From: a virus
Virus record (IMG/VR): IMGVR_UViG_3300045996_001242
Location: 1-64,000 of that record
Strand: one strand, 5' to 3'
DNA: 64,000 bases
Of the stretch, positions 2,425 through 39,800 are shown in pieces. The notes beneath the pieces were generated by a model. That model saw only the letters and a program-made list of their open reading frames with translations, was not told the DNA's origin and made no database searches. The translations under genes and the position numbers were made by a program. How positions within the stretch are numbered: position 1 is the stretch's first letter; each line of letters opens with the position of its first letter.

Positions 2425-2556
2425 TCAAGTTAATGGCCAGGGCAGGAGCCGCCACGGATCGTGCATGTGCTTCACCATCAGCAGGGCGATGAGAATGAAG
2501 ACTAGCGCCCAGAGGGCGAGGGTAAACCCTGTCCGCGTGAGCTTAGTGGTAGACAT
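2425..2556 (-). CDS. Small membrane protein after the spanin genes (43 aa)
   Basis: ATG 2556 gives MSTTKLTRTGFTLALWALVFILIALLMV followed by a short tail ending LLPWPLT. It has one clear transmembrane helix with a positive N-terminus. The start overlaps the end of the 79-aa gene. Its place in the spanin operon and its size would fit a small holin or antiholin-like protein, but sequence alone does not show it. The ribosome site is weak, so confidence is moderate. Confidence 0.5.
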   Translation of the reverse strand: MSTTKLTRTGFTLALWALVFILIALLMVKHMHDPWRLLPWPLT

Positions 2557-2782
2557 AGGACGCCCAGATCCCCGAGTGGACGTCCACCTGGTAGAAGCCC
2601 ACCTGCTTATTGCCGCATAGCATCCAGCGGGCTTTGTGCAGCTCATCCAGGTCCACCCCTTTGCCCTCATCGTCGAGGGCCAGGAAGACGTCCACCTCGA
2701 GGCCGTTGTTCAGGCGGACGGTCGGCACCCACTCCTCGTCCTCTCCCTCGAGCTCGTCTTCGTCATCCAGCTCCAGGTCCAT
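2543..2782 (-). CDS. Acidic hypothetical protein (79 aa)
   Basis: A 79-residue protein with a very acidic start (DLELDDEDELEGEDEEW). A compact domain follows, with the pattern VRLNNGLEVDVFLAL...GFYQVDVHSGIWASYVYH. Its ATG overlaps the stop of the outer spanin gene by one base, so it is coupled to that gene. No function recognised. The co-transcription with spanins does not by itself make it a lysis protein. Confidence 0.6.
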   Translation of the reverse strand: MDLELDDEDELEGEDEEWVPTVRLNNGLEVDVFLALDDEGKGVDLDELHKARWMLCGNKQVGFYQVDVHSGIWASYVYH

Positions 2783-3102
2783 CAGCGCTTACCCCGCGGC
2801 GCCGCGTCGAAGCCGGCTTTCAGCTGGGCGATATAGGCCAGGAGCGCGTCGACGTTCCCGAAGCAGGCCGCGAGCCGGACGCGATCGGCTTCCCAGTAGG
2901 ACTCGACCTCGGCCCTGGTGAGATCCCGGGACGGGAGGACGGTTGCCTGCTTGCAGTTGGCGTCCTTGTCTGTCGGCGCGTTCGAGAGGTCGAGCCGGGC
3001 CCTAGCGGATCCGGTTGAGGCGCTGCACGCTGCCAGCGTCAAGGCCAAGCTCGCTGCCGCGAGGATCAGCGGCACGTGCCGCAGCATTTTCTGCAAGTGC
3101 AT
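2782..3102 (-). CDS. Outer-membrane spanin lipoprotein (o-spanin, Rz1-like)
   Basis: The start at ATG 3102 has AAGGA upstream. The N-terminus is a lipoprotein signal: hydrophobic LILAAASLALTLAAC with a lipobox LAAC and the acceptor cysteine at residue 26. The mature part is a short periplasmic protein of about 80 residues. The first 101 bases lie out of frame inside the inner spanin gene, the nested Rz/Rz1 arrangement. Known role of the family: it joins the inner spanin across the periplasm and fuses inner and outer membranes at lysis. The family assignment rests on architecture, not similarity. Confidence 0.75.
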   Translation of the reverse strand: MHLQKMLRHVPLILAAASLALTLAACSASTGSARARLDLSNAPTDKDANCKQATVLPSRDLTRAEVESYWEADRVRLAACFGNVDALLAYIAQLKAGFDAAPRGKR

Positions 3103-3370
3103 TCTCAAGTTCCTTGTTCTTTGCGGTGAGGGCCGCGACGCGCTCGGCGTAGACGCGGTCAGCCTGCTCGACGGCGCGATCGTTGGCCGCTTCGGTCAGC
3201 TGAATCTGGTGGAGGTAGTGACGCTCGGCTTTCTGGAAGCCCTGGTTGAAGACGTGCGTGTAGGCCGCGACGCAGACGCCGCCGATCGCCGCGACCTTAG
3301 TGATGGTGCCCCGGTGCTTCTTGAGGAAGCGCCAGGCCTGGAGGCCTAGGGCTAGGCTGTGGCTGCTCAT
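3002..3370 (-). CDS. Inner-membrane spanin (i-spanin, Rz-like)
   Basis: A 122-residue protein with one transmembrane segment near residues 24-40 (TKVAAIGGVCVAAYTHVF). A periplasmic coiled coil follows (AERHYLHQIQLTEAANDRAVEQADRVYAERVAALTAKNKELENALAE), then a tail ending GSVQRLNRIR. This is the classic i-spanin layout, and the o-spanin gene begins inside it in another frame. It is the first gene of a leftward unit that starts opposite the rightward late block. The spanins are on the other strand and about 13 kb away from the endolysin, which is unusual for a lysis cassette. Confidence 0.8.
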   Translation of the reverse strand: MSSHSLALGLQAWRFLKKHRGTITKVAAIGGVCVAAYTHVFNQGFQKAERHYLHQIQLTEAANDRAVEQADRVYAERVAALTAKNKELENALAENAAARAADPRGSELGLDAGSVQRLNRIR

Positions 3371-3473
3371 ATTCTCATAATCCGTTCAAAATAGGGTCTT
3401 GCATTATTCACCTAATGGTGCTCTAAAACCCAAGCTGATTATTCGATAACCCAACGACATTAGCAAGGAAAAT
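3371..3473. promoter_or_regulatory. Divergent promoter region
   Basis: A 103-base AT-rich gap separates the leftward spanin gene from the rightward accessory cassette. It contains degenerate versions of the GATAATC motif (CATAATC near 3376, GATTATTCGATAACC near 3438). A loose sigma70-like pair lies on the plus strand: TTGCAT then TCTAAA 17 bases later. Promoters firing both ways are expected here; exact sites cannot be fixed by eye. Confidence 0.45.
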
Positions 3474-3761
3474 ATGAGCATGGATTTCTCCGATGCGCTT
3501 CGTCAGCTGAAGGCGGGGCAGCGCGTGGCCCGCGCCGGCTGGAACGGCAAGGGCATGTGGATCTGCCTGGGCAAGGGCCTCGACGCCAACCCGGCGCAGA
3601 ACTTCTGGAACACGCACACCCGCGAGCATGCCGAGCAGAACGGCGGGTTCGCCAAGGTCCTTCCCTACATCATCATGAAGACCGCCGACGACGCGATCCT
3701 CATGGGCTGGCTGGCGAGCCAGAGCGATGTCCTGGCCGACGACTGGGAGCTGGTCCAATGA
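3474..3761 (+). CDS. tad2: Tad2-like anti-Thoeris protein (DUF2829 family)
   Basis: A 95-residue protein with the DUF2829 hallmarks in order: SDALRQLKAGQRVARAGWNGKGM at the N-terminus, LPYIIMKTADDAILMGW in the middle, and WLASQSDVLADDWELV at the end. Members of this family include Thoeris anti-defence protein 2. Tad2 binds the gcADPR signal molecule made by Thoeris TIR proteins and so blocks the abortive response. AAGGA precedes ATG 3474. The stop overlaps the next start (ATGA). It heads an accessory cassette. Whether this homologue keeps the ligand pocket needs structural comparison; the family call itself is strong. Confidence 0.85.
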   Translation: MSMDFSDALRQLKAGQRVARAGWNGKGMWICLGKGLDANPAQNFWNTHTREHAEQNGGFAKVLPYIIMKTADDAILMGWLASQSDVLADDWELVQ

Positions 3762-4261
3762 GCCACAAGGTAGCCCACGGCGGCGTAGCCGAGATCGAGC
3801 TCTCCGAACGCGCGACCGGCCCGCGCGTGACTCTCGCCCAGGTCGAGGCGGCTATCGCCAGTGAGCATTACTTCACCGCCTATGATGGGGCGTATGGCGC
3901 GACCATCGACTTCGCGATCGAGGACGTGCCCGAGGACCTACGGCTCCTGACCTTCTGCGTCCTCCGGCTGAAGAACGGCTACACCGTCCACGGCACGAGC
4001 GCCTGCGCGGATCCGGCCAACTACAAGAAGGACATCGGCGAGCGCATCGCCCGCGAGAACGCGGTCCGGCAGATCTGGCCGCTCATGGGCTACGAGCTGA
4101 AGACCCAACTCTTCACCCTCTCCCAGGGAGCCGGCCGGCCAGAGGGCGCGAGCGAGGCGCAGCCGAGCGAAGCAAGCCCGGCGGCCGCGGCGGCGACCGA
4201 CCTGATGGACGTCGACCAACTCGACCGATTCAGCAAGCTCAACAATCAGTGGGTGGTCTGA
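3758..4261 (+). CDS. Gp49/Gp66-family phage protein
   Basis: The start at 3758 overlaps the Tad2 stop. Residues about 25-110 match the phage Gp49 (N4 gp49 / Sf6 gene 66) family pattern: VTLAQVEAAIASEHYFTA, then LTFCVLRLKNGYTVHGTSACADPANYKKDIGE and ARENAVRQIWPLMGYEL. The family is common in phages, and its biochemical role is not known. The C-terminal 55 residues are Ala/Pro/Glu rich and probably disordered. The N4 counterpart lies in the same general late neighbourhood. Confidence 0.8.
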   Translation: MSHKVAHGGVAEIELSERATGPRVTLAQVEAAIASEHYFTAYDGAYGATIDFAIEDVPEDLRLLTFCVLRLKNGYTVHGTSACADPANYKKDIGERIARENAVRQIWPLMGYELKTQLFTLSQGAGRPEGASEAQPSEASPAAAAATDLMDVDQLDRFSKLNNQWVV

Positions 4262-4263
4262 GC

Positions 4264-4455
4264 ATGGCCATCCCGAGCGAGCCCCCCACCGACCAGCGGG
4301 AACGGGCGATCTGGACGATCCGTCGCCTGACCAAGGCGGTCACCGGCAAGGAGATGTCCCAGGCTGAGGCCGAGCAGCTCTACGCCAAGGCCGAGGCGCA
4401 GATGACGGCCGCCATGGCGAGCGTGACTCCCAAACCCCCGGGGAGCCAGGAATGA
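4264..4455 (+). CDS. Small helical hypothetical protein (63 aa)
   Basis: ATG 4264 opens MAIPSEPPTDQRERAIWTIRRLTKAV..., a polar helical protein with a middle QAEAEQLYAKAEAQMTAAM segment. The stop overlaps the next start as ATGA. The motif ERAIWT followed by a helix reappears in the 61-aa product at 4978-5163 (DERAIWTKEIPIELAVRALQ), so the two may be distant paralogues. Function unknown. Confidence 0.6.
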   Translation: MAIPSEPPTDQRERAIWTIRRLTKAVTGKEMSQAEAEQLYAKAEAQMTAAMASVTPKPPGSQE

Positions 4456-4985
4456 ATGACAGCTCCCGCTTCGCTCGCTTCATGGCGATCGTCGTGGCTC
4501 TGACCTGCCTCGCGATCGGCGGCCTGGTCGCCTACGCATCCCCCGTCCACGCCAAGGCGAACGTCGACGACCCGCCGGGCTGCAACAAAGACCCCTGCGT
4601 CATCCAGCATGACGGTGGCGGCTTCGTCGAGAAGTACGAGCACCTCGCCTGGCGCCTCAAGCAGACCGGCTGGAAGCTCTCGATCGACGGGGAGTGCTAC
4701 TCGGCCTGCGTCATCCTCGCGGACAAGGCGCGTCCGAACGTCTGCCTCACCCACAAGGCCCGCTTCTTCATCCACCAGACCAAGGGTGAAGAGAAGCGGC
4801 CGAACGGGGAGTACGAGCCCGTCCGCCGCCCCTACGAGGGCTACTCCGAAGACATCAACGAATGGATCGAGTTCAACGGCGGGCAGCCCATCACCGGCTG
4901 GCTCTACATGGAATTCCTCGAGGCCCGGAAGTTCTGGCCGGCGTGCGGCGCGAGCTTCTTCAACGCGAGGACGACCGATGAGTAA
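4452..4985 (+). CDS. Exported ClpP/crotonase-fold-like protein
   Basis: A signal peptide covers residues 1-34 (charged start, hydrophobic MAIVVALTCLAIGGLVAYA, cleavage likely after VHA). The mature protein has cysteines in DPPGCNKDPC, GECYSACVIL, VCL and WPACG. The core pattern, a gly-rich loop followed by GECYSACVILADKA and later ARFFIHQT, resembles bacterial periplasmic ClpP-fold proteins in which the Ser after the Cys is the nucleophile. This would be an unusual secreted hydrolase for a phage cassette. The assignment is by pattern only; the catalytic His/Asp cannot be placed with certainty. Confidence 0.5.
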   Translation: MNDSSRFARFMAIVVALTCLAIGGLVAYASPVHAKANVDDPPGCNKDPCVIQHDGGGFVEKYEHLAWRLKQTGWKLSIDGECYSACVILADKARPNVCLTHKARFFIHQTKGEEKRPNGEYEPVRRPYEGYSEDINEWIEFNGGQPITGWLYMEFLEARKFWPACGASFFNARTTDE

Positions 4986-5163
4986 GGATGCCCCCAGGGA
5001 CGAGGACGAGCGGGCCATCTGGACCAAAGAGATCCCTATCGAGCTCGCCGTACGCGCGCTGCAGCGGATGTTCCACACCTTCAGTGGCGTGGATCTTCCG
5101 GAAGAGAACGCCAAAGCCCTTCTCGAACAAACAAAGAACGAGACGAATGAAGATCGCGATTGA
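4978..5163 (+). CDS. Small hypothetical protein (61 aa)
   Basis: The start at 4978 overlaps the end of the preceding gene by 8 bases. The product MSKDAPRDEDERAIWTKEIPIELAVRALQ... is charged and predicted helical. It shares an ERAIWT patch with the 63-aa protein upstream. No family recognised. Reality is supported by the overlapping-gene pattern of the whole cassette. Confidence 0.55.
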   Translation: MSKDAPRDEDERAIWTKEIPIELAVRALQRMFHTFSGVDLPEENAKALLEQTKNETNEDRD

Positions 5164-5494
5164 CTACGACCTGACCTTCTCCCTGGATCCCCACTTCTGG
5201 CGAGCCTTCGTCGAGCTCGTCGTACGGCATGGCCATGAGTGCCGCTGCGTCACCATCCGCGACGATCGCTTCGATCGTACGGCGCCCCTCGTCGACGTCG
5301 AGCAGCTCATGCGGGTCCACTACACCCGGGGTGTCGCCAAGCGCCACCACATGGCCTCGGACCCCGACGCCAGCGACTGGGTTCCGGATGTCTGGATCGA
5401 CGACAAGCCCGAGTCGATCGTGAACAACTCTCCGACCACGCGAGACAAGCTGATCGAGTGGCGCGCGAACCGCGGCGAGGGCCCTTCACTGTGA
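5147..5494 (+). CDS. HAD-like small hydrolase-fold protein (115 aa)
   Basis: ATG 5147 starts MKIAIDYDLTFSLDPHFW. The DYDLT segment is the HAD motif I pattern (DxDxT). Near the C-terminus VWIDDKPESIVNN resembles HAD motif IV (DD). These features fit a minimal HAD-superfamily phosphatase or a fold relative without a cap domain. Substrate unknown; 5'-nucleotide or RNA-end phosphatases are the usual phage cases. The stop is overlapped by the GTG start of the next gene. Confidence 0.6.
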   Translation: MKIAIDYDLTFSLDPHFWRAFVELVVRHGHECRCVTIRDDRFDRTAPLVDVEQLMRVHYTRGVAKRHHMASDPDASDWVPDVWIDDKPESIVNNSPTTRDKLIEWRANRGEGPSL

Positions 5495-6069
5495 CCACGG
5501 TTGCCTACCGCGACGGCGTTCTCGCCACCGACAGCCGCGGGGTGTCGGGCGACATTATCGCCGACAACCACTGCCAGAAGCTGTTCGTCATGCAGGATGG
5601 CAGCCTCGTCGCCGCGGCCGGCAACTACAGCCTGATCTGGGCCTTCGTGAACTGGATGTACGAGGGCGACGAGAAGGTCGACAGGCCCGAGGTCCGCGAG
5701 AGGGACACGGCCGTCATCATCCATCTCGATGCCGCCGGCAGGTTATGGGAGTTCGAGGGCCACGACTGGGCGCCCTGCGTGGCCCCCTTCTATGCCTGGG
5801 GCAGTGGGGCAATGGCCGCGCTCGCCGCCATGCACCTCGGCGCTACCGCGGAAGAAGCCGTGCTGACGGCAATCCAGGTCGACCCGAACTCGGGCGGGGC
5901 CGTCCAGGCCAAGCGCCTGGTCGATAGCGTTGCCACCGTCGCTGAAAATGAAAGGGCCGAGTCCCGGGTGAAAGGAGGAAAGCCCCGGAAACTCGGCCCA
6001 CGTCCTCAGCGGCGGAAACCCACAAACGCCGCGAGGGAAGCAAATTCCTTGATAATCGAAAACGATTAA
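5491..6069 (+). CDS. Proteasome/HslV-like Ntn-hydrolase
   Basis: The best start is GTG 5491, which overlaps the previous stop (GTGA) and gives M-TTVAYRDGVLATDSRG. Removal of Met would expose a Thr nucleophile as in HslV and proteasome beta subunits. Further family features are the internal GSLVAAAGNYSLIWAF and GSGAMAALAAMHLGATAEEAVLTA helices. The C-terminal 45 residues are basic and probably disordered. Phage members of this fold are known but mostly uncharacterised. A self-assembled protease or a decoy of host HslU are both possible. No ATPase partner lies next to it. Confidence 0.7.
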   Translation: MTTVAYRDGVLATDSRGVSGDIIADNHCQKLFVMQDGSLVAAAGNYSLIWAFVNWMYEGDEKVDRPEVRERDTAVIIHLDAAGRLWEFEGHDWAPCVAPFYAWGSGAMAALAAMHLGATAEEAVLTAIQVDPNSGGAVQAKRLVDSVATVAENERAESRVKGGKPRKLGPRPQRRKPTNAAREANSLIIEND

Positions 6070-6134
6070 GTGGTGGTGGGTCAGGAATATGGATATAATG
6101 ATTACCACAAAAATAAGCTGACGCAAGGCAGATA
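6051..6134 (+). promoter_or_regulatory. GATAATC element before the terminase genes
   Basis: GATAATC at 6051-6057, in the direction of transcription, is followed by an AT-rich gap (GGATATAATGATTACC near 6088) ahead of the start at 6135. TATAAT occurs within it. This is the first gap in the rightward block after the accessory cassette, so it is a likely late promoter. Confidence 0.45.
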
Positions 6135-6944
6135 ATGACGACCCCCTCGCTTTTTAACGCGCCACCGCTGCAGTTCCCGGCCCCGAAGCCGGCCGCTCCC
6201 GTCGAGCCCGCTCCGGCTGAGACTGCTCCTACGCCGGCACCAGCTTCCTCTTCCCTGGTTCCGCTGACCGAGGACGACGTCAAGCGCGCCCTGCCGGCGC
6301 ATCTGCGCGCGTCAGTGACCCAGTCGATGGTTGACACGCTCAACCAGATCACGGCCGACCCGCTCGTCGCCGAGCAGATCCGCGGCAACTTCCTGGGCTA
6401 CTCGGGGGTCCTCAAGGAGGGGAAGTTCAAGACCGAGGATTACATCCACGCGGTCGCCTACGTCTCCTACAAGCTGATGGGCTACAACAACGAGGACAGC
6501 TACGCGCGGACCTTCCCGCAGCGCTATGCGACGCTCCTCGCCAAGGGCACCTCCAAGAAGGACATCTCGGCCTACGTCTCGGCTTATCACCGCGGCAAGC
6601 TCGTGAACCTCATCATGGAGCAATCCCTGGTTCCGACCTGGGTGCTCAACCAGGATCTCTTCCAGAAGGCGCTCAACGTCCAGGCCGATCTGATGCTCAA
6701 CGCCAACAGCGAGAAGGTGCGCGTCGAGGCGGCCAACTCGCTGCTGACGCACCTCAAGAAGCCGGAGGCCAAGGGCGAGTTCCAGATCAACATCGGCGCT
6801 CCGGACAACTCGGGCATGGGCGAGATGCGGGCTACCCTCGAGGAGCTGGCCCGGCAGCAGCGCGAGCTCATCGAGAAGGGCGCCATGAAGACGATCGACG
6901 TCGCCGGCGCCCGCCTGGTGAAGACGGAAGATCCGTCCAAATGA
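6135..6944 (+). CDS. Probable small terminase subunit (N4 gp69-like position)
   Basis: A 269-residue protein directly before the large terminase, overlapping it by 4 bases. Residues 1-45 are Pro/Ala rich and disordered. The middle is helical with small-terminase-like features: DDVKRALPAHLRASVT and YVSYKLMGYNNEDSYARTFPQRYATLLAKG, which resembles a phage terminase HTH region. NANSEKVRVEAANSLLTHL follows, and then an oligomerisation-type coiled coil (MRATLEELARQQRELIEKG). Function is inferred from position and architecture: DNA recognition for packaging. Confidence 0.65.
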   Translation: MTTPSLFNAPPLQFPAPKPAAPVEPAPAETAPTPAPASSSLVPLTEDDVKRALPAHLRASVTQSMVDTLNQITADPLVAEQIRGNFLGYSGVLKEGKFKTEDYIHAVAYVSYKLMGYNNEDSYARTFPQRYATLLAKGTSKKDISAYVSAYHRGKLVNLIMEQSLVPTWVLNQDLFQKALNVQADLMLNANSEKVRVEAANSLLTHLKKPEAKGEFQINIGAPDNSGMGEMRATLEELARQQRELIEKGAMKTIDVAGARLVKTEDPSK

Positions 6945-8617
6945 TGAGCCGCACCATCCCGGTCGGCATCGCCGATCCCACCGAGCTCGAGCTCGGCGAA
7001 AGCATCACCGGCCGGGTGATCATCAAGAAGAGCCTCGATCAATGGCTGGACGAGGTCGACTACCGGGCACTCAACGACAACACCTATGTGCCGTCCGAGT
7101 TCTCGCTCATCTACATGAACTTCATCAAGCTGGTGAACGGCGCCGAGGGCGAGAGCCACAAGACCCCGCCCGTCCACCTCAAGATGTTGGACAAGCTGGC
7201 GAATTCTACGTCGAACCAGATCGCCAACCTCTGCTTCCGCGGCGCCGCCAAGACCACGCTGTTCTTTGAATACCTGGTCCTCTTCATCGCGGTCTTCGGC
7301 TACCTGCCCGGGCTCGGCACCGTCACCGGGATGATCTACGTCTCCGACTCCATGGAGAACGGCGTCAAGTCGGCGCGCAAGAACATCGAGTTCCGCTACA
7401 ACAATTCGGACTATCTCCAGGAGTGGCTGCCCGAGGCCCACTTCACCGACAACTACCTCGAGTTCCGTAACAAGGAAGGCCATCGGCTCGGCGTCAAGAT
7501 GTTCGGCGCCAAGACCGGCATCCGCGGTACGAAGATCTTCGGCAAGCGCCCGACGCTGGCGGTCCTCGACGACCTGATCTCGGACGACGACTCGAAGTCC
7601 AAGGCCTCGATGGAGGCGATCAAGGACACGGTCTACAAGGGGATCAACTACGCGCTGGATCCAACGCGGCGCAAGATCGTCTTCAACGGCACTCCCTTCA
7701 ACAACGACGACATCATGATCGAGGCGGTCGAGTCCGGCGCCTGGGACGTGAACGTCTGGCCGGTCTGCGAGCGCTTCCCCTGCACGAGGGAGGAGTTCGT
7801 CGGCGCCTGGGAGGATCGCTTCTCCTACGACTTCATCATGGAGCAGTACGAGAACGCGGTCCTCACCGGCAAGGTCGCCGGCTTCATGCAGGAGCTCATG
7901 CTCCGCATCACCTCCGACGAGGAGCGCCTGGTCCAGGACGAGGAGATCCGCTGGTACTCGAGGACGGAGCTGCTCGCCAACAAGAGCGCCTTCAACTTCT
8001 ACATCACGACGGACTGGGCGGTCTCCGACAAGCAGACGGCCGACTTCTCGGTCATCTCGGTCTGGGCCTACAACCACAACGGCGATTGGTTCTGGGTCGA
8101 CGGCATCGTCGAGCGCCAGACCTCCGACAAGACGGTCAACGATCTCTTCCGCCTGGTTCAGGCCTCGCACCCGCAGTCGGTCGGCATCGAGGTGACCGGC
8201 CAGCAGCTCGCCTTCATCAAGTGGTTGCAGGGCGAGATGCTGACCAGGAACATCTGGTTCAACTTCGCGAGCTCGGAGAAGTCCGGCGCCGCCGGCATCC
8301 GGCCGCACACCAACAAGCTCACCCGCTTCAACCTGGTGGTGCCGCTCTTCAAGGCCGGGAAGATGTACTTCCCCCAGGAGATGAAGACCTCCCGGATTAT
8401 GGCGCATTTTCTCGGACAGATCCGTCTGGCCACAAAAAACGGCCTCAAGGGAAAAGACGACTGCCTCGATACGATTTCTATGTTAATGTACCTCAACGCT
8501 TGGAAACCGAGCGAGCAGGCCCCGCACCCGATGCAGGGCCATAATGGCGGTCCCGATTGGGACGCCGATGAGCTCGCCGACAACGAAGCCAGCCGCCTCT
8601 CCTCCTACATCGTTTGA
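6941..8617 (+). CDS. terL: Large terminase subunit
   Basis: A 558-residue packaging motor. The ATPase P-loop is RGAAKTT at residues 100-106. Walker B is LAVLDDL with D210-D211. The C-terminal RNase H-like nuclease has YITTDWAVSDKQTADFS (D358) and a late acidic motif KDDCLDTISML (D506, D510). Length matches N4-type TerL. It cuts and pumps genomic DNA into the prohead through the portal encoded at 19365. The start ATG 6941 overlaps the small subunit gene; a second ATG follows at once at 6944. Confidence 0.93.
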   Translation: MMSRTIPVGIADPTELELGESITGRVIIKKSLDQWLDEVDYRALNDNTYVPSEFSLIYMNFIKLVNGAEGESHKTPPVHLKMLDKLANSTSNQIANLCFRGAAKTTLFFEYLVLFIAVFGYLPGLGTVTGMIYVSDSMENGVKSARKNIEFRYNNSDYLQEWLPEAHFTDNYLEFRNKEGHRLGVKMFGAKTGIRGTKIFGKRPTLAVLDDLISDDDSKSKASMEAIKDTVYKGINYALDPTRRKIVFNGTPFNNDDIMIEAVESGAWDVNVWPVCERFPCTREEFVGAWEDRFSYDFIMEQYENAVLTGKVAGFMQELMLRITSDEERLVQDEEIRWYSRTELLANKSAFNFYITTDWAVSDKQTADFSVISVWAYNHNGDWFWVDGIVERQTSDKTVNDLFRLVQASHPQSVGIEVTGQQLAFIKWLQGEMLTRNIWFNFASSEKSGAAGIRPHTNKLTRFNLVVPLFKAGKMYFPQEMKTSRIMAHFLGQIRLATKNGLKGKDDCLDTISMLMYLNAWKPSEQAPHPMQGHNGGPDWDADELADNEASRLSSYIV

Positions 8618-9411: not shown

Positions 9412-12306
9412 ATGGGTCGTAGGTCCACTTTCCACCGGCCCAACGACGTCACTATGACGGTCGATGAGCTGCTCGGTGAAGCTTATCCGGTCGTCAAGGA
9501 GGTCAAGGAGAACCTCGACGCGATCAACGAGGTCGCCGATAACCTCGACGACGTCACGGCCGCAGTTGCGTCTGCCGCCGCGGCTGCAGCATCCGCTGCT
9601 CTAGCTGCGAGCTCGGAAGCCCAGGCCGCCGCCAGTGCCACGGCCGCCATCATGGCCAAGGTGGGCGCCGAGCAGGCCGAGACCAATGCAGAGACGGCCG
9701 AAACAAACGCCGAGGCTGCCCAGGCGGCAGCTGAAGCCGCGGCTGCTGCTGCCCAACTCGCTGAGGCCAACGCCGAGACGGCCGAGGTCAATGCGGAGCT
9801 GGCTGAGACGAATGCCGAGACCGCGGAAGTAGCTGCAGAGACGGCAGCTGCTGCTGCCGCTGGATCCGCCACGACGGCCGCTGGTCAGGCGACCACAGCC
9901 GCCAACCACAAGACGGCTGCCGAGCTCGCTGAGGCGAATGCTGAGGCAGCTCTGGCTCAGGCCCTAGATGCGCTCGCTGCCGCTGAAGACGCACGAGATG
10001 CGGCCCTCGTTGCGCAAGCTGCTGCCGAAGCTGCCAAGGCCGCCGCCGAAGCCGGGTTCGACTCCTTCGACGATAAGTACCTCGGCTCGAAGACCTCGAA
10101 CCCCACCCTCGACAACGACGGCAACGCGCTCATCGACGGCGCGATCATCTGGCATAGCGTCGCCAAAGAATGGCGAGCCTACGACCTGGCCACCACTACC
10201 TGGTTCGCCATGTCGGCCGGTGTCGCCGAGGCCTCGAGCATCGGGTTCACGCCGGCGGGCAATCTCTCCTCGGACAACGTCCAGGACGCCCTGACTGAGC
10301 TCGATACCGAGAAGATCCCGCACACCTATCTCGACACCGACACGACGCTCGCTGCCAACAGCGACACCAAACTCGCCACCCAGAAGGCGGTCAAGGCCTA
10401 CGTCGACGACGCGGTAGCGGATGTCGAAGCGGTCATCATCGTGACCGACGAGTTCGTCGGCGACGGCACCGCAGACTACACCCTGAGCCAGGCGCCGCTA
10501 GAAGAGCAGACCTGCTGGCCGGTGGTGGGTGGCGTCGAGCAGCCCCCGTCGACGTTCTCGCTCTCTGGTTCCGTCATCACGTTCTCGGAGACGATCGCGG
10601 TTGGCGTCGCCATCCACGTCAAGTACATCGGCGGCGCTTTCGCGGTCGACAGCGAAACGCACGCGACGAACGCCGCTAATAGCGCCGCCGCTGCTGCCGC
10701 TTCAGAGACGGCCGCCGAGCTGGCCGAGACCAACGCGGAGACGGCAGAGACGAATGCCGAAGCTGCCGCTGCGGCTGCAGCTGCCTCGGCGACGGCGGCC
10801 CAGACGGCTGAAACGAACGCTGAGACTGCCGAGACCAACGCCGAGACCGCAGCCACAGCAGCTGCGGGAAGCGCCTCCAGCGCCGCCACTTCCGCGACCA
10901 ATGCTGCAACCTCTGCCTCCGCTGCTGCGACAGCCGAGACTAACGCCGAAACGGCCGAAAGCAATGCCGAGACGGCGCAGGCGGCAGCGGAAGCTGCTCA
11001 AGCCGCGGCCGAGGGTTTCCGTGACAACGCCGAAGCGGCCGAGACGGCGGCCGAAGCTGCTCGAGATCTGGCTCTCACTTACCGGGATGCGGCCGAGGCG
11101 TTCAAGAACAGCGCCCAGACCGCGGAGACCAATGCCGAGACGGCCGAGGCGAATGCCGAAACCGCAGAGACCAACGCTGAGACGGCACAAGCTGCTGCCG
11201 AGGATGCGCGCGATGCAGCGCTGGTCGCCCAGGCTGCAGCCGAAGCGGCACAGGCCGCTGCTGAAGCCGGCTGGGATGCCTTCGACGATAAGTACCTCGG
11301 AGCCAAAGCAGCCAACCCGACGCTTGATAACGACGGCAACGCACTCCAGGATGGCGCCGTCTACTGGAACAACGTTGCCCTCGAGTGGCGGGTCTACGAT
11401 CTTGGCACCACGAGCTGGGTGCCGCTCGCTGGTGGTGGAGCTGCTTCGGGCGTTGCCACGACTCCTGCCGGCGGTCTTGCGTCCACCAACGTGCAGGATG
11501 CGCTCAACGAGCTCGACACCGAGAAGTTCGCGAAGGCCGATGTCGACACCGACAACACCCTGGCGGCCGACAGCGACACCAAGGTAGCGAGCCAGAAGGC
11601 CATCAAGGCGCATGTCGCGGCGGCGATCGCCGCGCTCTCGAGCGTCTACCAGGCGGCCGCGACGATCCTCACCAATATCGTCGGCCTGAGCACCAACGGG
11701 CTCATCACCCGCACGGCATCGGGTGTGGTTGCGGCCCGCTCGATCGTCGGCACGACCAACGTCGTGACCGTCAGCAACGGCGATGGCGTTTCGGACAATC
11801 CGACGATCGACATCCCGACCAATGCGATCGGCAACACCCGCCTCGCCGACATGGCCGAGTCGACCATCAAGGGTCGGGCGGCATCGGCCGGCACGGGAGA
11901 TCCAACGGACCTCACCGCCGCCCAGGTGAAGACCCTCTTGGCGATCGCAGCCTCCGATGTTGTCTCTGGCCAGTTCGCGGATGCACGCATGCCGTCGCGC
12001 TTGGGCGTTAGTGCCGAGCAGACGACGGACCCCAACAACATCGTAACGACTGGCTTTTACGCAGGAGCGAACACGGCCTCGAACATCCCGGTCGCCGCGC
12101 ACTTCTACCTCTGGCACATCCGCTGGGATGTGAACTCCATGTACCAGGAGTTCCAGGTCTACAACACTGACGAGCGTTGGACCCGGAAGATGACCGGCGC
12201 AACCTGGGGCTCGTGGGCCCGAGCGCTCACCAATGGGTACACGGTCAGCACTTCCGACGCTTCCGGCTCGGCCCCTGATGGCACCATCTGGTTCAAGGTG
12301 CCGTAA
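9412..12306 (+). CDS. Tail fibre/appendage with Ala-rich coiled coils and C-terminal pyocin-knob-like domain
   Basis: A 964-residue protein. Residues about 55-215 and 415-620 are long runs of an AETNAET-type heptad, predicted trimeric coiled coils. After each run comes a related globular block: FDDKYLG...NPTLDNDGNAL...EWRVYDL, then NVQDALxELDTEK and SDTKxAxQKAxKA. The two blocks are about 404 residues apart, an internal duplication. The C-terminal 130 residues (VTTGFYAGANTASNIPVAAHFYLWH... GTWGSWARAL) look like a pyocin-knob domain, followed by YTVSTSDASG. The role is host receptor contact, as in N4 appendages. The product pairs with the small proteins downstream. Confidence 0.8.
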   Translation: MGRRSTFHRPNDVTMTVDELLGEAYPVVKEVKENLDAINEVADNLDDVTAAVASAAAAAASAALAASSEAQAAASATAAIMAKVGAEQAETNAETAETNAEAAQAAAEAAAAAAQLAEANAETAEVNAELAETNAETAEVAAETAAAAAAGSATTAAGQATTAANHKTAAELAEANAEAALAQALDALAAAEDARDAALVAQAAAEAAKAAAEAGFDSFDDKYLGSKTSNPTLDNDGNALIDGAIIWHSVAKEWRAYDLATTTWFAMSAGVAEASSIGFTPAGNLSSDNVQDALTELDTEKIPHTYLDTDTTLAANSDTKLATQKAVKAYVDDAVADVEAVIIVTDEFVGDGTADYTLSQAPLEEQTCWPVVGGVEQPPSTFSLSGSVITFSETIAVGVAIHVKYIGGAFAVDSETHATNAANSAAAAAASETAAELAETNAETAETNAEAAAAAAAASATAAQTAETNAETAETNAETAATAAAGSASSAATSATNAATSASAAATAETNAETAESNAETAQAAAEAAQAAAEGFRDNAEAAETAAEAARDLALTYRDAAEAFKNSAQTAETNAETAEANAETAETNAETAQAAAEDARDAALVAQAAAEAAQAAAEAGWDAFDDKYLGAKAANPTLDNDGNALQDGAVYWNNVALEWRVYDLGTTSWVPLAGGGAASGVATTPAGGLASTNVQDALNELDTEKFAKADVDTDNTLAADSDTKVASQKAIKAHVAAAIAALSSVYQAAATILTNIVGLSTNGLITRTASGVVAARSIVGTTNVVTVSNGDGVSDNPTIDIPTNAIGNTRLADMAESTIKGRAASAGTGDPTDLTAAQVKTLLAIAASDVVSGQFADARMPSRLGVSAEQTTDPNNIVTTGFYAGANTASNIPVAAHFYLWHIRWDVNSMYQEFQVYNTDERWTRKMTGATWGSWARALTNGYTVSTSDASGSAPDGTIWFKVP

Positions 12307-30804: not shown

Positions 30805-33800
30805 ATGGCCGACTTCAACATCCTCGATCCGTCGACGTGGCTCCCTTCGCAGGCCCCGGCGGCGCCAACGCCTGCCAATGCAGTGATCAACGGCGTCGAG
30901 GACCCCGGTCTTCCCCTTCCTGGTTCCGTCGCAGCGCCCGCGCCGGCTCCCGCCGCCCCAGTCCAGCCGCAGATGTCCGAAGCCGATAAGCTCCGGGCCG
31001 ACATGCTGCAGATCAACGCGGCGCTCGGGGATCCGGACGCCATGGCGGCGCTCGCCCTGTCCGAGCAGCGGGGCAACGGCCTCACTGCCAACAACCAGCT
31101 GCTCAACGACTTCGAAGGACTGACCCCGGTCCAGTTCCAGCAGAAGTACGGCGTCGGCACCTATCGGCGCCTGGTGACGTCCCGCATGCGTTCCCGCGAG
31201 GTTGTGGCCGATGCCAATCCCGATAGGGATCTCACCACGACGCTGTCCGACATCGGGATCGATGCCCTCGAGGGCGTGAACCAGACGGCCTATGGGGTCG
31301 CCGCAGCCGCCGTGCAGGCAGGTCTCGGACCTGGTCGTCCCAAGGACTGGCTACTCGAGCAGATCTCCGGGCTCTCCGCGGACCAGACGGCCCGTACCCG
31401 CCGGCTCGAAAGCGAGGAGCTCGCCGAGCACCGCCGTTATGACTCGATCCGTACGGCGCTCGATGATCTCGATGCCAAGGTGGCCAGCGGAGCCGACCAC
31501 GCCGACGACAGCAACTTCATCGACAATCTAGCCAGCTACGGCCGAGACTACCTCCGGGGCGCCGTCGATGCCGGCGGTCGCCTCATCGAAGATCCGACCA
31601 TGGCTGGAGCCCTGGCGGCTGAGGGCGTTGGTTCCCTCGCCGTGGGCGGGCCGCTCGCCAAGACCCTTTCGACGACTGCCCGGGCTGCAGGCCTCGCCGG
31701 CCGCGGCGCCGCCGAGCTGAGTGAAGAGGCGCTCACCAGGGCCATGTTCCCGGGTGGCATTGCCGCCATGGAAGCAGGCGGTGCTGCGATGCAGGCCGAG
31801 CAGGAAGTGCTCGCCATGACCGAGGGCCAGCTCCTCGAGAGCCCCAACTATCGCGAGCTCCTCCAGAACGGGTACACTCCCGAGGAAGCCCGGGCCCGGC
31901 TTGCGACGATCGCTGGCTCCATTGCTTCGGTGCCGGCGGCGCTCACCGGCGCCCTGACCGGTAAGCTCGTCGAGGGGATCGAACTTCGTCCTTTGCGTGC
32001 CGCTGGCCCGGCCGGCCTTGCCGTCAATGCCGGCAAGGAGACCGTCGAGGAAAGCATCCAGTCGACTGTCGGCCAGCTGGCCAGCAACACCGGTGTGGCG
32101 CTCTCCGGCGCCGACCCCGACAAAGATCTCGGCGAAGGACTGGGCCGGGCCACCGTCGAGGGTGCAGTTGCCGGTGCCGGCACGACGCTCCTGACGCAGG
32201 GACCTGGCGTTGCTCTTTCGACAGCAGCCAAGTCGATCGGCGCCACCATCACGTTCCCGGCCAAGGTCATCCGCGGCCTTGGCGAACGCAATCTCGCCGA
32301 GCGGGCTGCTGCGTCGCCGGTCTCCGCAGAGAGCATGGCTCCTGCCGTGCAGACGGCTGCCGAGCAGGCGCCGGCTGTGGCCGAGACGCTGCGCACCGTG
32401 GCCACTGAGCAGGGAGCCAGTGGAGCGGAAGTCGATAGCTACATCGAGAGCGTCCAGCAGGCTTCGCAGATCCAGCAGGCCGATGCTGCAATGATGCCGG
32501 CCATTCTCAAGGCCAAGCTCAAGGAAGCCCGTGATGTGCTGGGCAGGCTGCCCAACCGCTTCGAGGCGCTCCATGTCGCGGCGGTCCTCGCCGGCGACAA
32601 GTCGGCCGACCAGGACGATCGTACCGCAGCGGCGACCTTCATCCTCAAGAACATCGAGGCGAACCGGAAGCTCTTTGGCGAGCTCCCCACCTTCCTCGAG
32701 AACATCCCGTCCGATCGCCCGGAGTTCAAAGCCTTCAGCGATTACGCGGCGACGCTCGTCGCAATCGACCAGGAACCCGCTGTCCGCGATGCGGTGAAGT
32801 GGGCCCAGGAGGAGATGCAGCAGGCCGACCGGGATCTCTCCGCGGTCGATCTCAAGACGCCCGAAGGCCAGACCATCGTCGCCCAGGCTGTGCAGATGGC
32901 AGCGGTTGCACCGCAAGCGGTGAGCCCCAACGTCGCCGACCAGATCCTGCATCAGGCCGAGAAGGGCACGGCAACCCTCACCCCCGAGCAGCGCCGCATT
33001 CTTGCCGGTGCCTCGGCGATGAAGAAGGCCTCCGCTACCGCAGCCCAGGAGCTCGATGAAGATCCGGTCCAGCTGGTGGGCCGCCAGATCGAAACCGAGG
33101 GCGGAACTAAAGCCCATCAGATGGCCCTAGTTCAGCACGTCGCTGGCATCAATGAGGCTGTCGAGGCCGGCGACACGAAGACGGCGCAGGCTCGCATCAA
33201 CTCGCTGGGCATGTTTGCGCGCTCGATGCGCAACAAGGTTCAGGCGTTCAACACCGCGATCCAGAACGGCGATCGCAAGCGTGTGCCGTATCAGTCACTG
33301 GGTCGGGACGGCTGGCTGCCGAAGGACGAGTATTTCAGCGTCTTCTTCAACCCTGGCTCCGAGGCCTCCGAGCGCCTGGCTCGCCGGGTCCATGCCGAGG
33401 CGGCAATGATCGCAACCGTCGCCAACGAGTACGCCCGCCAGTTCCCCGAGCTGGGGATCCAGGAGGTGGCAATCCCGGCGCTCCGTCCGATGCCGGCCAA
33501 GGCCGAGTCGGCGGTTGAGAAAAATGATAAAAGGGGAGGCGCGACGTCGGAGGCGGCTGCTCCGTCCCAGGCTACCACGTCCAGGACAGAGGCCGCTCCC
33601 AAGCAGTCGGAGCCTCCCCTTCAGCCACCTGCGCCGACCAGGGAACCCGAGACGGCCGCTCCGGCTGTGGAGCCAGTCGCCTCAGAGGATTCTACCAATC
33701 AGCGTCAGGATGACGAACAGCCGGCCGAACCCCAGGTGGAGGTCGTTGCTGAGCCTGAGACCCAGCCGGCTGAAACAGTTTCGCAGGTTTCGGAGCCAGT

Positions 33801-36800
33801 TGCTACCAAACCCGAAGAAACCGCTGACGCTACGCCAGCGGCGATTGATGAGTTCGTGGATCCGCCGCCGTTCGTCGAGCCTACGATCGAGCAGCTGTTC
33901 CCGAACCTGGTTCAGCCCAAGGGCCGGAACTTCTTCCTCAAGGCCTTCCGCCTCCCGCAGGTACGGGCATCCCGTATCCTCGGCATGACGGCGCCGCTGC
34001 GTGAGTTCATCGGGGCCCTCTCGGATGGCGGCCGCCTGGTCGAGTGGCTGGGCGCCGATCGCAACGCCAACCTCAAGTATCGCGTGGATCCAGAGGACCG
34101 CGCCAACCTCGGCCAGCTGATGAAGATCGGCGTCGAGGTCCGCACCCTGATGCGGGATCGCCTCTTCAAAGTGCTCACCAGCCAGGAGGAGAAGGGCAAG
34201 CCGACCTACGTCGAGATGCTGGCTTCCGGCCGGGAGATCAACCAGTGGCGCCGCTTCCGTGCCCTGAACATTTTCGAGAAAACCGAAAAGGGTTATCTCT
34301 ATAATCAGTCCCTGGTCGAGGGGGCGATCCTCGCCGGCTTCGACTGGCTCCTCAATGCCGCCGATCGCAGCGTGCCCATGACCCGGCAGGATGTGGCGCA
34401 GCTGCTCGGGATCGATGAGGACACGGTCACCGATGACCAGGTCAAGGCGCTCAATAACGGCCTCTCGCTCGACATGGCGGTGCGCTCGCTCGCTGACAAC
34501 ATCCGCAAGTTCTGGGGTGTCGAAGCCAACAAAGACATGCCCGAGGATTACGTACGCGGGATCCCGCAGGCTGTGGCGCTCGAGGTGCTGCACGCCTTCG
34601 CCGAGATCGAGGTCAACATCGGGGAGGAGTCCTCTCCGCTTCTCGAGCTCGGCATCAAGTTCAGCGACGACAACGACAAGCGTCTGGCCTTCCCCGACGT
34701 CACCCACAAGAAGTTCAACCGGGTCTACTTCGACAAGCGCTCCGATGGCCTGAAGGAATACCTCCAGTCCCTCAACGGCGTCAGCAACCTGATCGCCGAC
34801 ATGGCGCTCATCGGGCGTGAGGTCGAGGGCTTCGCCTTCGAGCCGATCACTGAGGTCGACCAGGCCCAGTTGCGCAATCACCTGGTTCCGACCACGGCGC
34901 AGCAGAAGCAGGCCCTGGCCAATACCCAGGCAGCGCCGCACTACCCGAACCTGCCGATGTTCGACTTCATCACGGCGATGGGCGAGGAAGCCTTCGTCAC
35001 GCTGATGAGCAAGCGGCCCTACAAGAAGGGCGACCTCAAAAAGACCCATCGCGATATGGGCCTCAACAAGAACCACTGGAGCTCGCTCCAGGGCCTGCAG
35101 CGCCAGCTCGCATCTTCGTTCGAGCATGTGGCCAAGCAGATGGCGCAGCTCCAGAAGCACGGCGCCGATGCCGCGGTCTACTACAAGCACCACGTCAACA
35201 AGCTCGGCCGCCTGCAGATGGCGGGCCTCAGCAATCCGCAGAGCGACAAGCTCGCTCGCGAGATCTTCATGCCGACCCGGACCAGGCTCGATCTTTCCAA
35301 GCCCGGGAACGGAGACTTCCTCAAGTTCCTGATGACGATCGGCCAGGGCATCGGCCTGAAGACCGAGAAGGAGCCCCGGCGGGCCATCCTCAAGAAGGTC
35401 GTCGAGTCGACGATGACCGACGATGGAGCGCTGCGTCCTCTGGTCCTGGCTCTCAAGACCTGGCTCGAGGCTCGTGCCGCCGGCCAGGATACGACGATCC
35501 CGGCAGCGACCACTGAGCTGCTGACGGCGGCCGGGCTCTCGATGCACGGCATCCACTCGCTCATCACCGTCGCCCGCTACGAGCTCGATCGCGATGCTGG
35601 TCGGGACCTGACCCAGTTCGAGACGATGACCTACCTCGAGGCCGATGGCAAAACCAACGGCCCGATCAATTCGCTGATGCTCTACGGCAACGACGAGATC
35701 ACTCCCACCTGGCTCAAGACCGTGGCCAAGGGCGGTGCCTTCTTCGGGAAGCTGGGCAAGACGCTCAACTCCCACACGGAAGATGGCGAGGCCTTCAAGG
35801 ATCTCTACGAGGAAGGCGCGCTCGGCACCAACGATCGTGTAGCCGATCTCGGCCGTGCCATCCAGGCGAACGGCAACACCGCCGCCGGCGATCTCTTCAA
35901 GTCGTTCCAGCGGGTGCTGGCGGCGCTCGACGCCAACGTCGAGGTCGATCCCACGACCAAGGAGATCACCATCAAGCGTGGGATCACCAAGAACCCGCTG
36001 ACGATCACCATCTATGGTTCCGGCGCCAAGGGCATCGCCGGCAAGATCACCGACGAGCTGCTCGCTGCAATGTACGAGGCGCTATCGGCCTCGACCGAGA
36101 AGGACAGCCCCCGGGCCGGTGAGCTCATCTACGAGGGCGTCGAAGGCGCCGACTTCACGTCGGACCTGCAGGCGCTTCTCTCGGGTGTGCTCCGCAAGAA
36201 CAAGAAGGGCGAGTATTTCGTCGGCCGGGACAACGATCCCGATCTCAAGATCCGCGGCAATGCGCTCGACTTCACCCTGAGCCGCAAGCAGCGCGAGAAC
36301 CTCCGGGCCAACATCCAGGCGATGCTGGTGAAGCCGATGCGTGAGGCGATCAACGAGACGGTCACGACGCACGTGAGCGCCGTCACGGACTCGATGCAGC
36401 AGGCGACGCAGATCCAGTCTGTGTTCCTGCGCGCCATGTTCATCGACAAGCTCACGCACCGGCTGGCCATGAAGCAGGCCAGCCCGGAGAAGTTCGGCTA
36501 CATCAAGGGCGAGTTCCTCTCCCAGGCCGAGCTCGACGACATCATCAAGAGCCTGATGCCGTTCTCGCCGGTCATGAGCACCGGCACCCAGAGCTACTTC
36601 CTTTCGGGTGGCGAGACGTCGAACCTGCTCTCCCGCGAGGAAGAGCAGGCGGACGGGACGACCAAGACGATCCACGTCAAGATCGAGATCGCCGGCCAGG
36701 AGTTCGAGGTCCCGATGCCGGAGACCTTCGCCCGCTCGCTGACTGACGACATGTCGACGCCGGCCTTCACCTATGGTCCGACCCAGGCCGGCGTTAAGGC

Positions 36801-39800
36801 GATCCCGACGATCGTCGTCGGCTCGGGCGATGGGCAGATGATGCTCAACCTCCTCGCCGATCATCCCGACGTCGCCAAGCGTGTCGAGCACGTCTTCGAT
36901 GGTCTCGACATGCCGGCCGATGCGATCGACGACTATTCGCGCCTGGTGAACGAGGCGGTCTTCAAGACCTGGACCAGCAATGGCAACCCGGTCCGTGCCG
37001 CCTATGAAAGCTTCAAGACGTTCCTCGATCGCAATCCGATCGATGGGCTCTTCGGTGAAGCCAGCAAGCTCAACGAATACCAGCAGCAGGCGATGCAGGA
37101 TCTCGTCCGTGCTATGGGTCTTGACGAAGGCACCGAGGACACGCAGCTGGTGCAGGTCACCATGGACAGCCTGCTCGCCCGCATGAGCCAGCTGGCCGAC
37201 GAGACCGATGCCCGGCGCCTCACGTATGCCGAGTTCCCGTTCTCCGTCGACCAGATGGCGAGCGCGGAATCCCCGTATGTGAACCAGGGTTCCATCACGA
37301 TCGACGAGAACGCTACCTACGAGCAGATCGCCGATGCGATGAACGAGCGGTATCGCTTCCACCTGGCTCAGATCCAGGCGGCCAGCAAGGATGCGCCGGC
37401 GCCCAATTCGATCCAGGAACAGGTGACTGCAGCGGCCGATGAGTTCGGCGTGCAGGTCATGCCGGCAACCGAGCTCGAGGACCTCTACAAGAAGCTCCGC
37501 GAAAAGCTCAACCCGACCCAGAAGGAGATGATGCGCCAGGCCGCCAAGCTCCTGAAGGACTCGGGGTATCGTCTCGGCTTCGGCACGAGCTCGCAGCTCG
37601 ACGCCTGGGAACAGGCGAACAACGCTGATCGCTTCATCCCTGGCTCCAACAGCCACCGCGGCAAGATCGATCCGGTCTCGAAGCTGATCCTCATCTCGAG
37701 CATGGAAGCCGAGACGGTCATCCACGAGCTGGTCCACGCAGCTACGATCGACAAGGTGCGGGCCTACTATGCCGATCCCAAGACGCTCGCTCCCGAAGAG
37801 CGGGATGCCGTCGTTCGCCTCGAGGGGCTGATGGAAGATTGGCTCGACCAGGATCCCGGCAAGGAGACTGCCGAAGGGCAGGATGCTCGCGCTCTGGCCG
37901 AGGCCGAGATCGCCAAGTGGCAGGACAAAGGCCGCAAGGCCGAAGCGCTCAACGAGTTCATGGCCTGGGTGCTCGGCAACCAGGACCTCGCCGAGCGGGC
38001 CCAGAAGATCAAGATCAAGAACCCGGTGCTGCGTGTCGTGAGCGAAGCGCTGGCGGCGCTGAAGTCGCTGCTCTGGGGCGCCAAGAACAAGGGTCCCCGT
38101 GTCGGTGACTCGCTGCTCTCGAACCTGCGCTTCAACACCCGCGTGCTGATGAACGGGCCGACCTCGATCGAGAGGCTCAAGGCGGACAGCGCCGCAGTGG
38201 CGCTCTACCAGTCGAGCTCGTTTGGCGACAATCCGCGGCTCACGGCGCTCCGCCAGAAGATCCACAATCGTGTCATCTCCTGGATCGACAGCGCTACCGA
38301 TCCGCTCGCCAAGAGCCGCCGGCAGGTTGACACCTTCAACCAGGGTCTTCTCGCCGATCAGCTGACCGGTGAGTTCGCCTATCACTTCGAGGATCTCGGG
38401 ACGCTGCAGGCCAAGGGCACGTTCTCGGAGATCCAGCTGATGCTGATGACCGAGGCCGAGCTCAACCCCAGTGCGCTTTCGCGCATGGAGGATCTCTATA
38501 CGCACGTCATCGGGCAGCTGAAGTTCGAGGACTTCCTCGCCGATCGCAATGCATCGCCGCGGGATCCCAACGACGAACGCCAGGCCCAGGACAAGCTCAA
38601 GGTGCTGCAGGGCAAGACGATGACCGTGACTGACAAGTCCGGCCGCTCCTCGCTGCTCTCTTCGTTCCTGGCTCTGGCGATGACCAGCGACCAGTTCCGC
38701 ACCATCCTATCCGGCATCCAGAAGCCGGCGTCGGACAAGAGCGATGCCAAGGGCTTCGATGCCGTGCTCGAGAACGCAGCGACCGCTGCGATCGACCGGC
38801 TCGGGATCCTGATGTCGGGGGAGAAGGGCAAGGACGGCAACGTCCGTGACGCCCTCGACCGGCTGATGTACGCCATGATCGAGAACGTGGGCGACCAGCG
38901 CACTCACATCGAGCGCAAGATCGAGCACGGCTTCGAGAAGATCGAGACGCTTGTCGCCGATCAGATCCAGGAGAAGAGCGCTCTCGTCGCCGAGAAGGCG
39001 AAGGACATTCGCGCCAATTCCAGGAGCCGCGTCGTCAAGGCCGGCGCTACCCTGGTTGGGTTCGTGGCCGACATGGTCAACGAGGAGAATGCCGCCGAAG
39101 CGCAGATGGGCATGGTCCACTGGCTCAACAAGCACAAGGGCTTTGAGAGCGTCCGGGCCCTGGTCAACGACGTCGTCGGCCGCACTCGCGAGAATGCGCC
39201 GGTCTTCGACATGATCTCCAAGGTCCGCGCCACCGTGCAGCAGGTCCGCCAGCAGTTCCGCGACGAGCTGCCGGTGAAGCTCAATCGCATGTTCGAGAAG
39301 CCTGTCTCGGAGGCGAAGTGGACGGCGATGTTCAAGACGCTGGGTCGGACCGACCTCGCTGCTCTGACCGGCGCCTATGGCGTCGACGGTGCGCTCGAGA
39401 TGGTTTCCAACCAGCAGCGCCGGGAGACCGAGATCCGCACCCTCGAGGGCAAGTTCGATCCGCGCTTCCACGAGAAGGCCAAGCAGCTCGCCCACTTCAT
39501 GGTGAGCGGTGAGCATGGCACGAAGCTCTTGCGCAATGCCTATGCGATCGCTGCCTTGACGATCCCCGGGATCAAGAACCTGAACCCCACTCAGGAGATG
39601 GTCGACGAGCTCGACCGCCTGGTGACGCTCTACGCTATCGAGGAGACCGACCAGGCCAGCAAGGATGCCGTCATCGAGCTGATGCGGGACGAGGAAGCCG
39701 GCGTCGAGTTCGTCACCAGCTACCTGATGGGCCAGCGAGTCGATGAGCTCGCCAAGGTCGCAATGACGCCGGTGGCGAAGATCAACCACTACAAGGGCCA

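Follow-up and report, generated by a model that had tools for sequence, protein, structure and literature searches.

A swapped gene cassette upstream of TerS in an N4-like viral genome, headed by predicted Tad2 and Acb4 signal sponges

Genes and edges of the cassette

The stretch of DNA analyzed here (the window) comprises 64,000 nucleotides, positions 1 to 64,000 of IMG/VR record IMGVR_UViG_3300045996_001242, a viral genome of 77,644 bases (77.6 kb) that is N4-like (Schitoviridae) and whose TerL is 70-74% identical to the large terminases of Schitoviridae (N4-like phages). A total of seven compact genes, all confirmed as open reading frames on the + strand, lie between a divergent promoter region and the terminase genes, and nearly all of them overlap, as an earlier note on this DNA had described. 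The first (3474-3761) encodes a Tad2-like sponge of 95 aa and overlaps by ATGA with the second (3758-4261), which encodes a 167-aa candidate cyclic-dinucleotide sponge of the Acb4 family (Gp49/PF13876). After a 2-base gap follow genes for a 63-aa helical protein (4264-4455), a secreted protein with a ClpP-like Ser/His motif (4452-4985; 4 nt overlap), a 61-aa helical protein (4978-5163; 8 nt overlap), a HAD-like phosphatase of 115 aa (5147-5494; 17 nt overlap), and an HslV/proteasome-like Ntn hydrolase of 192 aa with a GTG start (5491-6069; 4 nt overlap). On the - strand at 2782-3370, across the divergent promoter region, overlapping genes for an inner-membrane protein and a lipoprotein resemble Rz/Rz1 spanins; the match of this putative pair to the Rz-like spanin family phrog_312 is weak (E 0.005).

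The cassette is headed by a promoter-like box of 35 bases, TTGCATTATTCACCTAATGGTGCTCTAAAACCCAA (3399-3433, + strand), that marks the upstream edge of the slot. Scored with a matrix made from five sequences, of which the window itself is one, the box occurs once in the 77.6 kb genome, with a score of 49.9 against 5.9 for the runner-up and up to 14.6 for shuffled sequences. The box stands before the first cassette gene in several loci, namely Tad2 in the window and in L011, Acb4 in L004, an Acb2-like gene in L008, and a metallophosphoesterase-like gene in L009. Two tandem hairpins on the + strand lie toward the other end. Hairpin 1 (5954-5999), with a G+C-rich stem and a loop containing GGAGG, falls within the 3' part of the Ntn hydrolase gene and has equivalents at the corresponding position in relatives; hairpin 2 (6003-6037), with the invariant loop GAAACCCAyaAA and a covarying stem, marks the downstream edge. 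In hairpin 2, which was found by motif in 13 of 76 related loci, both partners vary in 7 of 11 base pairs, and 80.9% of cells are paired versus 36-52% when the alignment is slid. The tandem arrangement (5954-6037 in the window) recurs upstream of TerS in L002-L011, L049, L054, and L085. A search of Rfam with the hairpins returned no match, and matches to the 15-base pattern of the loop among viral contigs were mostly due to chance. Possibly, the tandem hairpins serve as a terminator, processing signal, or packaging signal in these Schitoviridae. The final ~35 codons of the Ntn hydrolase gene lie in this conserved element and, since it is found before TerS in relatives irrespective of which gene comes last, the C-terminal tail that they encode is probably incidental.

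A second promoter-like box, at 6087-6128 (+ strand) with TATAAT at 6094-6099, precedes TerS; it could be aligned in seven loci and has one strong copy in the window. This box was considered as a promoter shared with the cassette and rejected, as the box is not shared. With its own upstream box, its hairpins, and a separate box for TerS, the cassette looks like a separate unit.

Two predicted signal sponges

The first gene product matches PF11195 with an E value of 1.4e-25 and 90 bits against a curated cut-off of 25, which bears out its earlier description as Tad2-like (DUF2829). A search of the PDB recovered Tad2 structures (8kbi at E 5.6e-17, SptTad2, and SPO1 Gp34.65). The whole domain aligns with these known members of PF11195 (formerly DUF2829), the GWNGK and WLASQ-D-DW motifs are common to them and the window protein, and GWNGK, W79, S82, D85, D90, and W91 are invariant with the sequences of 8kbi, SptTad2, and 8v3e. 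However, the window protein has an inter-strand insertion of intermediate length, and its closest solved relative is 8kbi rather than SPO1 Tad2. Depending on the member, the ligand of a Tad2 protein is gcADPR, His-ADPR, or a cyclic dinucleotide (PMC12043709, PMC13299392); the statement in the earlier note that Tad2 sequesters gcADPR thus holds for some members but is too narrow for the family. It should be noted that the insertion that confers dinucleotide binding on some Tad2 proteins is shorter in the window protein than in 8kbi, which counts against the interpretation favored below.

The second gene encodes a member of PF13876, a family that is named after Gp49 of phage N4 and that was long without an assigned function. 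The match (E 1.9e-28; 99 bits against a curated cut-off of 27) leaves the earlier placement of this gene in the Gp49 family secure. As described in the report of Chang and colleagues (2024; PMC11722364), Acb4 of phage SPO1 is a PF13876 member that acts as an anti-CBASS sponge, its structure was solved with 3'3'-cGAMP (9e4w), and this ligand was bound by 8 of 8 PF13876 members tested. Because PF13876 is the characterized Acb4 anti-CBASS family, the second gene is a far better anti-defense candidate than the earlier note could tell. A sequence profile of the gene found Acb4 (9e4w) in the PDB at an E value of 2.7e-7, with the next match at 0.66. Further, a protein model built from 49 relatives, with a core pLDDT above 90, had Acb4 as its best Foldseek match in the PDB (probability 1.00; E 8e-3), and in a structural comparison 9e4w was the best of 1000 chains (Z 9.0; rmsd 2.4; 74 of 86 residues), followed by an entry with Z 7.5. 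As modeled, the second gene product has the Acb4 fold. It has in common with SPO1 Acb4 the fold, the family profile, and a C-V-L-NGF-V-G-SAC core, but differs in its length of 167 aa, in a C-terminal extension that is modeled at low confidence, and in the replacement of several base-contact residues. When the ligand contacts of SPO1 Acb4 were read from the profile alignment to 9e4w, F48 and F62 were found to be Tyr in the window protein and I66 was kept, whereas K36 is replaced by Leu and E49 by Thr, a further point against the favored interpretation. Given the assignment of the second gene to Acb4 by family, profile, and fold, the cassette opens with two predicted sponge genes.

Exchange of genes between fixed edges

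The content of the slot was compared among 76 distinct loci that encode a related TerS; these are not phylogenetically independent and, in the relatives, were subjected to simple ORF calling. Acb4 was present in 41 of these loci, the HAD-like gene in 9, Tad2 in 8 (on the other strand in some), and the small paralogues in 6; only the window has the ClpP-like gene, and its combination of genes is unique. The edges of the slot are kept in the closest relatives while the gene content varies, such that relatives do not all keep the cassette as a block. The question raised earlier of whether related phages swap the cassette is thereby answered in the affirmative, and its description as an accessory cassette headed by a Tad2-like gene stands. 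In L005 (~2494-3117), a trypsin-like lipoprotein (PF13365, 5e-25) is encoded in the slot, where the window has the secreted ClpP-like protein instead. The slot of L009 holds genes for a metallophosphoesterase and a dGTPase-like protein; a 72-aa protein of this locus that resembles Acb2 was considered as such and rejected, as it matched only phrog_1761, which has no function assigned there.

A second set of 36 near-complete Schitoviridae genomes was scanned for sponge families. Acb2 (PF24729), which differs from the window sponges in family and fold, was detected in 5 of these genomes, always at most 1.5 kb upstream of TerS, and represents the same kind of function (signal sponge) in the same slot. 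Four of the five matches are above the curated cut-off and that of L008 is below it; the gene of G003 is on the opposite strand. All five genomes lack Acb4 (p 7e-4, kinship ignored), such that the two families did not co-occur in this set. Tad2 was present in 10 of the 36 genomes, all of which also encode Acb4, and in 9 of these 10 it lies within ~1.4 kb of Acb4, either in the slot or mid-genome.

The closest matches to the Tad2 protein of the window come from other phages (65% identity), whereas Tad2 proteins of its TerS relatives are only 41-50% identical to it; exchange would produce such a pattern. The base composition of the cassette is the same as that of the genome, which speaks against the favored interpretation and suggests that transfer was not recent or that the source had a similar composition.

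Pairing of Tad2 and Acb4 in other phages

Tad2 and Acb4 are each already known singly. Their neighborhoods were examined in 160 Tad2-seeded loci from viral contigs and bacterial genomes and in 79 Acb4-seeded viral loci, with some contigs in both sets and neither set phylogenetically independent; the Acb4 scan was seeded with a smaller alignment, the 49-row alignment being too diverse. Acb4 flanks Tad2 in 22 of the 160 Tad2-seeded loci, always on the same strand and in both orders, and in 20 of these pairs the gap between domains is at most ~420 nt or both domains are in a single ORF. From the other side, Tad2 was found near Acb4 in 11 of the 79 Acb4-seeded loci, all on the same strand, within 650 nt, and in both orders; 10 of these 11 pairs are without TerS nearby. 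As a rough background for this neighbor test, Acb4 was absent from all 36 chance viral loci that lacked TerS. At the sensitivity used (tblastn), each family is present in only 0.6-0.9% of phage records. At least three loci (L018, L244, and L270) encode Tad2-Acb4 fusions in one ORF, and the pairing as a whole extends over many phages that are unrelated. Counting against the favored interpretation, 86% of Tad2 loci are without an adjacent Acb4.

Escherichia phage N4 itself (EF056009; L397) has such a pair at 33632-34485, where gp48 (PF13876) and gp49 (DUF2829/Tad2) overlap by one base. Although these are adjacent Acb4-family and Tad2-domain genes as in the window, their order is opposite, and they are located mid-genome, next to the gene for the virion RNA polymerase, rather than upstream of TerS. 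It should be noted that PF13876 matches the gene annotated as gp48 and that gp49 is the Tad2 gene, though Pfam names PF13876 after N4 Gp49. The SPO1-like phage SP8 has both genes, ~25 kb apart. SPO1 Tad2 is reported not to bind 3'3'-cGAMP (PMC11722364), indicating that the two sponges are complementary in SPO1-like phages. No report of Tad2-Acb4 pairing was found among the papers searched, only two of which name both proteins, and the passages of the Acb4 paper that concern Tad2 (PMC11722364) do not describe it.

The five remaining genes

The 63-aa and 61-aa helical proteins are paralogous, and the former had no match in family searches. Their homologues in L004 and L006-L008 occupy the same slot, where the two are adjacent to each other; in L008, they and a HAD-like gene accompany the Acb2-like gene. 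The secreted protein matches phrog_19619 (E 7.7e-11) and has homologues in rhizobial and Nostoc phages; a viral scan with this protein alone as query returned no relatives. It had been described earlier as a secreted protein with a ClpP-like fold. A ClpP-like motif (GECxSACxxL...H) is present, with S84 and H108 invariant in four homologues, but a single-sequence fold model reached a pLDDT of only 47, so that the fold part of the label rests on the motif. The HAD-like protein had no Pfam match; its match to phrog_4256 (E 6.8e-23) and the invariance in five homologues of DxDxT, T36 (motif II), K65 (motif III), and DD85-86 (motif IV) agree with the assignment made earlier. The Ntn hydrolase matches phrog_1040, 'peptidase HslV family' (E 2.6e-36), and its T2 (after Met), D14, and K30 align with HslV-type enzymes. 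At 19.1 bits against PF00227, below the curated cut-off of 22.4, it is not filed as a proteasome subunit; the looser label of a proteasome-like Ntn hydrolase is upheld by phrog_1040 and the conserved Thr, Asp, and Lys.

A relative of the Ntn hydrolase lies beside the slot of L008 on the - strand (5737-6204), suggesting that the gene moves around the slot. In L033 (Bradyrhizobium phage BDU-MI-1), homologues of the Ntn hydrolase (4877-5323) and of the secreted ClpP-like protein (6938-7420) are ~2 kb apart on one strand. The earlier proposal that the unknown members are anti-defense candidates by association has gained from the second gene, now a member of the Acb4 family, and is weak for genes 3-7, where the argument is positional and homologues of the Ntn hydrolase and the ClpP-like protein occur in other contexts. 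That these five genes encode new counter-defense factors, for example proteases or phosphatases that disable defense proteins or signals, is doubtful.

Interpretation of the cassette

We consider it highly probable that this region is an accessory anti-defense cassette that occupies a fixed position immediately before TerS, carries a promoter-like box of its own, and is headed by a predicted Tad2 and Acb4 sponge pair. The cassette would be transcribed from the upstream box and, if expressed before the signals act, could rescue the phage. Tad2 is predicted to sequester the ADP-ribose signal of Thoeris, perhaps cyclic dinucleotides too, and the Acb4-family protein, unrelated to Tad2, is predicted to sequester the cyclic dinucleotides of CBASS. 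These diffusible signals would be bound before effectors kill the cell, and both kinds would be blocked from triggering abortive infection. For the other five genes of the slot, a counter-defense role is unproven and rather unlikely.

It is quite probable that the site is a general accessory (moron) slot, in which Tad2 and Acb4 counter signals of the host and genes 3-7 perform unrelated tasks such as head or host proteolysis, nucleotide salvage, or lysis. The assorted genes in the slots of relatives (the trypsin-like lipoprotein of L005; the metallophosphoesterase and dGTPase-like genes of L009) fit this, as do HAD and Ntn homologues in other contexts in other phages, including an Ntn homologue between TerL and portal, among the packaging genes, in phiM5. 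Yet sponges of three different families turn up repeatedly at this single site, which is more than one would expect of a random moron slot. The opposite extreme, in which the whole cassette is a single counter-defense operon and the small paralogues, HAD, ClpP-like, and Ntn proteins are new anti-defense factors, is improbable, since no other locus of the 76 has the window's combination and ClpP-like and Ntn homologues occur elsewhere in several phages, even if the compact gene string is headed by a sponge pair and the small paralogues and HAD-like gene also accompany the Acb2-like gene in L008.

Adjacency of Tad2 and Acb4 could also arise merely because both are small hitch-hiking phage genes with no joint function, as phage morons often cluster and as the ~25 kb that separate the two genes in SP8 would allow. 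This is unlikely given that the neighbors are on the same strand in 11 of 11 Acb4-seeded and 22 of 22 Tad2-seeded cases in both orders, that fusions recur, and that both families are rare.

Under the preferred reading of an anti-defense cassette headed by two sponges, a recurrent coupled or fused pair is directed against two signaling families, Thoeris and CBASS. Together with a fixed slot in which sponge families are exchanged among N4-like phages, this pair offers a simple route to further anti-defense genes. Additionally, it leads to a prediction for a classic laboratory phage, namely that, with N4 gp48 and gp49 present, CBASS and Thoeris should be less effective in Escherichia coli K-12.

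Other features of the window

Between genes on the - strand, positions 1780-2400 hold few genes and many GATTATC/GATAATC words, perhaps promoters or a genome end. A 964-aa protein encoded at 9412-12306 consists mostly of repeated AETNAETAEANAE-type units and is probably a tail protein. Further downstream, an ORF of 3583 aa (30805-41556) is comparable in size to the N4 virion RNA polymerase.
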